From assembly GCF_028368935.1 (NCBI RefSeq), contig NZ_JAQNDK010000001.1, forward strand, positions 1,984,001 through 2,048,000: 64,000 nucleotides of DNA, read 5' to 3'. The stretch comes from Sorangium aterium (GTDB lineage Bacteria; Myxococcota_A; Polyangia; Polyangiales; Polyangiaceae). Under the pieces are notes generated by a model. That model was given only the letters and a program-made list of their open reading frames with translations. It searched no databases and was not told the DNA's origin. Within the stretch, counting starts at the first letter, position 1. Every line of letters begins with the position of its first letter. Shown piece after piece: positions 25,801-26,618 of the stretch. A program made the position numbers and the translations under genes.

Positions 25801-26367
25801 AAGCGGGGCGAGCACGCCGCCGCCTTCGACGCCCTCGAGGCGGGCATCGCGCGCCGCTACCCGCCGGGGCGCTTCTCGGGCGTGGAGGGCATCCTGCGCG
25901 AGGATCTCGGCCTGGTCGCCGCGGCGTGGCTCAAGGCGGAGCCCGCACGCCGGGCGGCCATCCTGGCCCGGCTCGCGAAGGCCGGCGCCGCGCTCGAAGA
26001 CGCGCCCTCGCTCCGCTTCGTGCTGAACTGGGAGACCGACGCCAACGACGTCGACTTCCACATCCGGGACGACCGCGGCGGCCACGCCTATTACGGCGAC
26101 CCGACGCTGCCAGGCGGCGGGCACCTCTACGCCGACGTGACCACCGGCTACGGCCCCGAGTGCTTCACCATCCGCGCGCCCCGGGAGCAGCGGGCCAGCC
26201 GGTACACCCTGCAGGCGCACTACTACGCGCGCGGGCCGATGGGCTATGGCATGGGCAAGCTGCAGATCGTCGACCACGACGGCAAGGGCGGCCTGACCTT
26301 CGACGAGCGCCCCTTCGTGGTCATGACGGACGGAGCGTTCGTGGAGCTCGGCGCCGTCACGCGCTGA
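22864..26367 (+). CDS. VIT-VWA-AgmX/PglI-DUF2135 lipoprotein
   Basis: A 1167-residue exported protein with a GTG start at 22864 and a lipobox at ALLSC. Domains in order are as follows. VIT lies at about 70-200 (LEGTFSVTLPPGASVGRLAM). VWA is at about 275-450, with a MIDAS-like DTSAS. A Gly/Ala/Pro-rich linker covers about 590-735, and the AgmX/PglI C-terminal domain about 740-845 (RIVRQNFGRFRLCYERGL). TPR-like helices occupy about 850-1030. A DUF2135-type domain ends the protein (NWETDANDVDFHIRDDRGG). VIT/VWA pairs assemble multiprotein complexes, and AgmX domains are linked to myxobacterial gliding or envelope functions. The stop codon lies inside the first copy of a 25-bp repeat. Confidence 0.85.
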   Translation: MPRALLRSRAALAAIAALVPALLSCADSPSPPATPASLSRGPGPAAPRALPAAPAFAVAARRAEAAPFRLTAADGTGLRLVALTGRAVIEAPLALAELHLTFENPEDRVLEGTFSVTLPPGASVGRLAMKIDDRWQEGEVVELQRAREAYEDFLHRKQDPALLEQAAGNEVSARVFPIPARGVKHIVLSYSQELRPGAPFTVPLRGLPTVSRLDIEATVAGAAAPVHALRRNDAAPEADFVVDPARLTSIEGRGGLRSGELVLARVNAPVDARPDPLASAVILVDTSASRALGLEEQLGALAALARAVAQAGGPGAPLTVACYDQAVTPVFDGAASAFGEVEIARIRDRQALGASDLGRALRWAGERARARGQRRVVLLSDGIATAGEVAPGALRGAAAALRGAGVERLDAVALGGLRDEAALRQLVAAGLPRDGAVVDGARGAAEIERRLGSATRSGIAVNIEGARWVWPRTLNGVQPGDEALVYAEVPAALPVRLTVDGRTTTPDLRGVERPLLERSWARAKIDGLLAREGAGGDQDAIRKQIIDLSIAHRVLSPYTALLVLETEHDYARFDIARRGLSDILTVEGGRVAVQRRSRSQAGKPSAPAPATGPVAGASPGERAEVATEQSADVSPGGSAALRPPPAPPAPPAGADARYAFLKEGPAPAGASGLGLSGVGEGGGGRGEGIGLGAIGSIGHGSGAAAPAPSAASATSTGQGFGSGHGRLAGSHRTRAPQVRMGATQVSGRLPPEVIQRIVRQNFGRFRLCYERGLQRDEGLQGRVTVRFTIDPSGALANARDGGSDLPDSATVSCVVRAFRDLTFPAPEGGSVDVVYPILFTPPPDAAPAPDAPDGAAPPRSEPYTGRFKQINDTLARGDAPAAVRDARAWRAEVPGDVLALVALGEALEAAGDTPGAARAYGSLIDLFPARADLRRFAGARLERLAGGAGLELAVDTYEKAREQRPDHPASHRLLAFARLKRGEHAAAFDALEAGIARRYPPGRFSGVEGILREDLGLVAAAWLKAEPARRAAILARLAKAGAALEDAPSLRFVLNWETDANDVDFHIRDDRGGHAYYGDPTLPGGGHLYADVTTGYGPECFTIRAPREQRASRYTLQAHYYARGPMGYGMGKLQIVDHDGKGGLTFDERPFVVMTDGAFVELGAVTR

Positions 26368-26374
26368 CGCGCCG
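26350..26374. repeat. 25-bp direct repeat, left copy
   Basis: This copy is identical to 26594-26618. It overlaps the last codons and the stop of the VIT/VWA gene, so the ancestral copy is probably this one. The two copies enclose 219 bp that contain the GTGGTC hairpin. Confidence 0.9.
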
Positions 26375-26449
26375 AGGACTTCGCCAGCCCAGCTCTTCGT
26401 CACTCCCATAAACGTTACCCAGCCCTCGCGCCGCGCTCTCCTATATCCG

Positions 26450-26577
26450 AACGTTTACGTGGTCGTGGTCGTGGTCGTTTACGTGGTCGTGGTCGTGGTC
26501 GTGGTCGTGGTCGTCAACGATAGGCCGTGAACGACCACGACCACGACCACGACCACGTAAACGTAAACGTAAACGTT
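26450..26577. repeat. GTGGTC-repeat hairpin with GTTTAC flanks
   Basis: A long near-perfect inverted repeat built from the hexamer GTGGTC. The left arm (26450-26513) reads GTTTAC, three GTGGTC-type units, GTTTAC, then five or six units. The right arm (26532-26577) reads four GACCAC units followed by three GTAAAC units. The arms close on GTGGTCGT/ACGACCAC around a loop of about 16 bases. Each arm is several tens of bases long, so the transcript from either strand would fold strongly. It sits between convergent genes and may act as a two-way terminator or be a mobile palindromic element. Confidence 0.85.
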
Positions 26578-26593
26578 GGTTATCGCTCGGATT

Positions 26594-26618
26594 GGCGCCG
26601 TCACGCGCTGACGCGCCG
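26594..26618. repeat. 25-bp direct repeat, right copy
   Basis: A second identical copy of 26350-26374. It ends exactly at the base before the stop codon (complement) of the oxidoreductase gene at 26619. No coding role is evident here, which suggests this copy is the derived one. Confidence 0.9.

Follow-up and report, generated by a model that had tools for sequence, protein, structure and literature searches.

A hexamer hairpin between two convergent genes of Sorangium aterium is probably a decayed copy of a miniature element related to PF05635 gene-bearing elements

The stretch of Sorangium aterium DNA analyzed here (the window; 64,000 nucleotides, positions 1,984,001 to 2,048,000 of contig NZ_JAQNDK010000001.1) contains a long hairpin between two convergent genes, one for a VIT/VWA protein and the other for a Gfo/Idh-type oxidoreductase (Table 1). 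The hairpin is bracketed by two identical copies of a 25-bp sequence (GGCGCCGTCACGCGCTGACGCGCCG), 244 bp apart with 219 bp between them, and a direct check of the sequence bears out this layout, which had been described in an earlier note on the same DNA. The left copy indeed holds the stop codon of the VIT/VWA gene (TGA, 26365-26367), and the right copy ends one base short of the stop codon of the oxidoreductase gene. A whole-genome scan detected a single further match to the 25-bp sequence, with three mismatches, so a chance origin of the pair is excluded. The hairpin, noted earlier as a run of GTGGTC and GTTTAC units, is real, and its units are best read in one register as the hexamers CGTGGT and CGTTTA. 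The arms are 44 nt long and 89% complementary, with a 33-nt perfect core pair; the number of such GTGGTC arrays expected by shuffling is close to zero. Folded as RNA, the hairpin reaches -95.3 kcal/mol (shuffled mean -63.8; z = -8.1). As argued below, it is probably a decayed, immobile copy of a miniature dispersed element.

The core at the tip of the hairpin (CGTCAACGNNAGGCCGTGAACG) occurs 51 times at two or fewer mismatches in the 13.47-Mb host genome, in about 45 distinct elements, so the palindrome sought by the earlier note is present in many dispersed copies. It is absent from five other genomes of the genus (among them Sorangium cellulosum So ceGT47 and So ce26), save for one hit with two mismatches in one of them; 97 other genomes of the family, these five included, gave stray two-mismatch hits only, and the exact core was found neither in GTDB r220 (84,980 genomes) nor in IMG/VR. 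Brought into a common orientation, nearly all copies are delimited by an X end (CATAGGCGTTAACCAAGCTTCGCGCCGCGTTCTCCTACATCCGAACG) on one side and a Y end (ACGTTGGTGACCGATGGTGGGG...GACCGAACGAGCTTGGTTAACGCCTATG) on the other, and the outermost 15-18 bp of the two ends constitute a terminal inverted repeat (TIR; CATAGGCG..CGCCTATG). Intact copies end in CATAGGCGTTAACCAAGC and its inverse, which are diverged or truncated at the focal locus. The copies are gene-less and typically 176-355 bp long. Their arms comprise 2-25 hexamers each, all in one register (CGTGGT 57%, CGTTTA 17%, CGTGAA 14%), with usually three to five mirrored units adjoining the core. The arrays expand and contract among copies, a sign of slippage, and some copies carry two to four cores in tandem. 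Relative to X and Y, the core lies one way in about 24 of the roughly 40 copies scored and the opposite way in about 16; the center therefore inverts between the arms.

In the 28 copies with both ends placeable, duplication of the target site was assessed by comparing the 12-mer just outside X with its counterpart beyond Y. The mean identity is 7.57/12, compared with 6.06 (standard deviation 0.25) when the pairs are shuffled. Agreement at 11 of 12 positions is seen in five copies and at 10 in one, all at register 0 (e.g., CGGGGATGCTCC/CGGGGATGCTCT), while no shuffled pair reached 11. Matching flanks of about 12 bp at intact copies are what DNA transposition leaves. Together with the dispersal, the defined ends, and the near-absence of the core from the relatives within the genus, they support the suggestion of the earlier note that the hairpin could be a small non-autonomous mobile repeat. 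Other copies with direct repeats of their own, which the note had named as support for mobility, exist in the form of these short duplications; none of the other copies examined has anything like the 25-bp repeat of the focal locus.

Some relatives of the family carry a gene. When two more elements (locus L132) were used as queries, sibling elements came to light in So ceGT47 that have the same Y end and a spacer with an array on either side, the two arrays facing one another. The product encoded in the spacer of L182 and L205 is a four-helix-bundle protein belonging to PF05635 in Pfam (23S rRNA intervening sequence protein, S23p; E-value 4.6e-17). In the same genome, a decayed PF05635 gene (L208/L334) is accompanied by a Y end that is complete, and L324 and L329 are gene-deleted siblings retaining remnants of the gene. 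The host genome encodes exactly one PF05635 gene by genome-wide search (C1:2468097-2468402, E-value 3.5e-17), located between inverted CGTGGT/CGTAGT arrays with 73-nt arms that are 89% complementary. At the junction between array and gene, the sequence CGTCAACGACCGTTCGTGAACG closely matches half of the focal core. With its sole PF05635 gene lying between inverted arrays of the same hexamer, next to a core half and a partial Y end, the host genome makes the focal family look like gene-less deletion derivatives. Other PF05635 loci of Sorangium have the same layout with different arm repeats (CGTCTTT and CCCGCGT heptamers, GGACGC hexamers). The solved homologue of these proteins is XCC0516 (PDB ID: 2GSC, E-value 1.1e-15); the Xanthomonas S23p structure has been described as a homopentameric ring (PMC4990558). 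In So ce26, about 160 bp separate two PF05635 genes (L206/L207) of opposite strand within GGACGC hexamer arrays.

The association between PF05635 genes and short arrays extends across phyla. The loci surveyed were 80 from GTDB, obtained with an alignment of four Sorangium proteins, and those from a PF05635 search of the order, where the gene is present in 115 of 183 genomes and copy numbers range from zero to about 25 per genome. According to record titles, the GTDB loci belong to Myxococcota, Planctomycetota, Verrucomicrobiota, Lentisphaerae, Acidobacteriota, Desulfobacterota, an Anaerolineae genome, and others. Comparison of the left flank with the reverse complement of the right flank gives a median score of 45 (20-21 in controls), and the inverted-repeat score exceeds the 99th percentile of controls at 47 of 99 loci. 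The flanks are sharply periodic at a lag of 6 and less often of 7, with mean lag-6 runs of 14.7/13.1 versus 4.7/4.6 in shifted controls. Arrays of 6 or 7 bp on both sides were found at 35 of 97 PF05635 loci and at none of 385 neighboring control positions. Among the non-redundant array loci (n = 33), 27 are inverted and five direct; most of them have one and the same unit left and right of the gene, though it varies between loci. The 5' arm contains CGT in 23 loci and ACG in three, a count in which genes from the order-wide search are not all re-oriented. One genome (G028, L347-L352) has six dispersed gene-bearing copies that share 84-88% identity across about 1 kb and end in arrays of CACTGN hexamers, in direct rather than inverted orientation; no target duplications are evident at them by eye. 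In another genome (G076, L294), the inverted units around the gene are TTTAGGG heptamers, the repeat unit of plant telomeres.

These observations are probably best accounted for by descent from a gene-bearing element. The ancestor would have comprised a PF05635 gene between two inverted arrays; its internal deletion, the simplest reading of the family's origin, would have produced the gene-less layout of X end, CGTNNN array, 22-bp core, inverted array, and Y end, while one gene-bearing element persisted in the host genome. Gene-less copies would then have spread by insertion with a target duplication of about 12 bp, presumably moved by an enzyme acting in trans, and survived preferentially at the 3' ends of genes, with their arrays changing by slippage and their core inverting between the arms. 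The PF05635 protein may act on or recognize the arrays, more likely as DNA than as RNA. At the focal locus, the 25-bp repeat would be a later rearrangement, specific to this copy, that removed the Y end. Several points weigh against this account. Of the small family's ends, the gene-bearing copy of the host genome has just part of Y; X is missing from it and was not seen in the relative loci examined either. All but two weak or stray TIR matches genome-wide lie within hexamer elements, so the genome contains no transposase-bearing partner with the family's ends. Finally, a clean orthologous empty site was not obtained among the five relatives, because intergenic DNA diverges too far between species.

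How the 25-bp repeat arose is a separate matter, compatible with the descent just outlined. Its likeliest source is a templated or slippage copy made during fork or break repair at the hairpin, which would have joined the VIT/VWA tail to the oxidoreductase tail at a short homology and removed the Y end; the balance of evidence tips modestly towards this reading. The left copy is in its ancestral place, since the VWA tail and the AGGAC that follows it match the tail and downstream sequence of relatives. The sequence TAGCGGCGC, common to two relatives of the oxidoreductase gene, follows their stop codon and is homologous to the VWA tail over 6-9 bp, and the Y end is truncated on the side of the right copy. 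Against repair copying, there is no intermediate or sister strain, and other orders of events are conceivable.

The copies of the family might instead be retained as two-way terminators or RNA-processing hairpins rather than spread as mobile DNA, which seems unlikely. The earlier note had allowed for a strong two-way terminator, and the distribution of the copies favors it: crude gene calling places 19 between convergent genes, 16 between tandem genes, and one between divergent genes. This heavy bias towards gene 3' ends keeps a role in stopping transcription or in RNA processing in view, and the fold is very stable. However, the element does not form an intrinsic terminator (a GC stem followed by a T-run), its gene-proximal positions are species-specific, and both target duplications and TIRs are present. 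An Rfam scan of the window gave no match. A stem selected as sense RNA should favor G-U over A-C mismatches between its arms, but over 44 PF05635 hairpins the gene's sense RNA would have 93 G-U and 89 A-C mismatches (p = 0.82). Although the test is a weak one, the lack of a G-U bias favors a role, or a turnover of repeats, at the DNA level over an RNA hairpin like that of rRNA intervening sequences.

It is improbable that the entire 219 bp was inserted and that the 25-bp repeat is its target-site duplication, as the earlier note had suspected. An exact repeat does bracket a palindrome, and joining the right copy to CTAG would give a plausible tight convergent junction. Yet 32 bp lie between the left copy and the X end, the Y end is missing, and what follows the left copy agrees with the ancestral sequence downstream of the VWA gene in a relative (L067). 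The duplications of other copies are about 12 bp long and abut CATAGG..CCTATG, and a flanking repeat longer than 11 bp was found in none of the 16 other copies tested. The 25-bp repeat is thus not the target duplication of the family, which at the focal copy is not demonstrable, the Y end being lost. That the hexamer arrays are ordinary unstable microsatellites lying near PF05635 genes by chance is hardly credible: they clearly expand and contract, but they are confined to the gene loci in the comparison with control positions and their units match between the two sides of a locus.

Among the closest known systems is the 23S rRNA intervening sequence (IVS) of Leptospira and Coxiella, in which an open reading frame (ORF) for S23p/IVP, likewise of PF05635, lies in the loop of stem-forming inverted repeats (PMC4990558). 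The likeness applies to the gene-bearing relative in the host genome and not to the focal copy. A further hallmark of IVSs is their excision from RNA by RNase III. The present elements are located between protein genes, with no conserved 23S rRNA motif in the PF05635 loci tested; their arms are tandem arrays of 6 or 7 bp, the focal family is gene-less, dispersed, and flanked by target duplications of about 12 bp, and the wobble test gives no sign of RNA-hairpin selection. The family also resembles miniature inverted-repeat transposable elements (MITEs) in being small (less than about 600 bp), gene-less, multi-copy, and intergenic, with a TIR and a duplication of constant length at intact copies. 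It differs from them in its interior, a self-rearranging hexamer hairpin, in the lack of an autonomous transposase element with its ends, and in that its nearest gene-bearing relative carries PF05635 and no transposase. With repetitive extragenic palindromes (REPs) and REPINs it shares dispersed intergenic palindromes at gene 3' ends; it is built, however, of hexamer arrays and long TIR-bearing ends instead of two short REPs, the pairs of which are linked to a RAYT (Y1) transposase.

What the four-helix-bundle proteins of the IVS/S23p family do and where they come from has been an open question for decades. An origin from mobile elements has been proposed, but the Coxiella IVS paper calls functionality and origin unclear and cites an earlier proposal that the IVS ORF served mobility as one of several unproven ideas (PMC4990558). 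In the host genome, a relative of the gene sits in an element of which the dispersed gene-less copies, with their defined ends and target duplications, look like derivatives. The simple signature seen across phyla, 6/7-bp arrays of one unit left and right of the gene, opens the question to binding and mobility assays. A search of the open-access literature found no description of Sorangium MITEs or of such arrays around PF05635 or TIGR02436 genes. The legend of a figure in a large CRISPR survey names '23S rRNA IVP' among array-associated proteins (PMC10910872), which may or may not refer to the present arrays. Tentatively, PF05635 genes could define a widespread, undescribed class of bacterial mobile elements: a tiny gene bracketed by 6/7-bp arrays that its product, a pentameric ring in the one solved homologue, recognizes as DNA. 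The rRNA IVSs might then represent a domesticated or parasitic branch, and the gene-less hairpins non-autonomous offspring. PF05635 resembles Avd, the accessory protein of diversity-generating retroelements (PMC10053308), and because Avd is a partner of reverse transcriptases, it may be speculated further that the arrays arise when a short template is copied reiteratively. Neither a reverse transcriptase nor a pair of template and variable repeats was noted at PF05635 loci, where no systematic search for them was made.

Table 1. Features of the focal locus (positions within the window)
Feature	Position	Strand	Remarks
VIT/VWA gene, convergent neighbor	22864..26367	+	ORF; orthologues found in relatives
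Left copy of the 25-bp direct repeat	26350..26374		3' end and stop codon of the VIT/VWA gene; VWA tail conserved in relatives L065-L067 and L078
32 bp separating the left repeat from the X end	26375..26406		Initial AGGAC matches VWA downstream sequence in relative L067
X end, diverged copy of CATAGGCGTTAACCAAGCTTCGCGCCGCGTTCTCCTACATCCGAA	26407..26451	+	Outermost 18 bp differ by 4 edits, inner X motif by 1
Left arm, 10 hexamers CGTNNN (CGTGGT, CGTTTA)	26452..26511	+	Sequence inspection
Core CGTCAACGATAGGCCGTGAACG, hairpin tip	26512..26533	+	Common to about 45 copies
Right arm, hexamers NNNACG (ACCACG, TAAACG), inverse of the left arm	26534..26573	-	Sequence inspection
Truncated Y end followed by non-element sequence	26574..26593	+	Only about CGTTGGT (26574-26580) left of the 50-70 bp Y end
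Right copy of the 25-bp direct repeat	26594..26618		Extra copy of the VWA gene tail; abuts the oxidoreductase stop codon
Gfo/Idh-type oxidoreductase gene, convergent neighbor	26619..27785	-	ORF; 88% paralogue at G000:C1:916659

The second copy of the oxidoreductase gene (G000:C1:916659-917717) encodes a protein 88% identical to the one beside the focal element. To the right of the element, the sequence CGCTCGGATT (26584-26593) is also present downstream of the VWA gene in So ce26 (L065), either as ancestral intergenic sequence or by chance. Another dispersed repeat of Sorangium, CTGCGGGAAGTTGCCCCGGATCAGCAGAAGAACCGCCATGGCGCC...CTTGGCGTC, occurs in So ceGT47 and So ce26 (L191, L192, L194, L196, L197, and L199), and one hexamer element of the host genome lies within such a repeat (L132:9240-9313). 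Elsewhere in the window, positions 36082-41274 constitute a large tandem repeat with a 351-bp period and about 15 copies, and positions 54335-56267 contain tandem repeat arrays with a period of 123-126 bp that probably encode a WD40-type protein.
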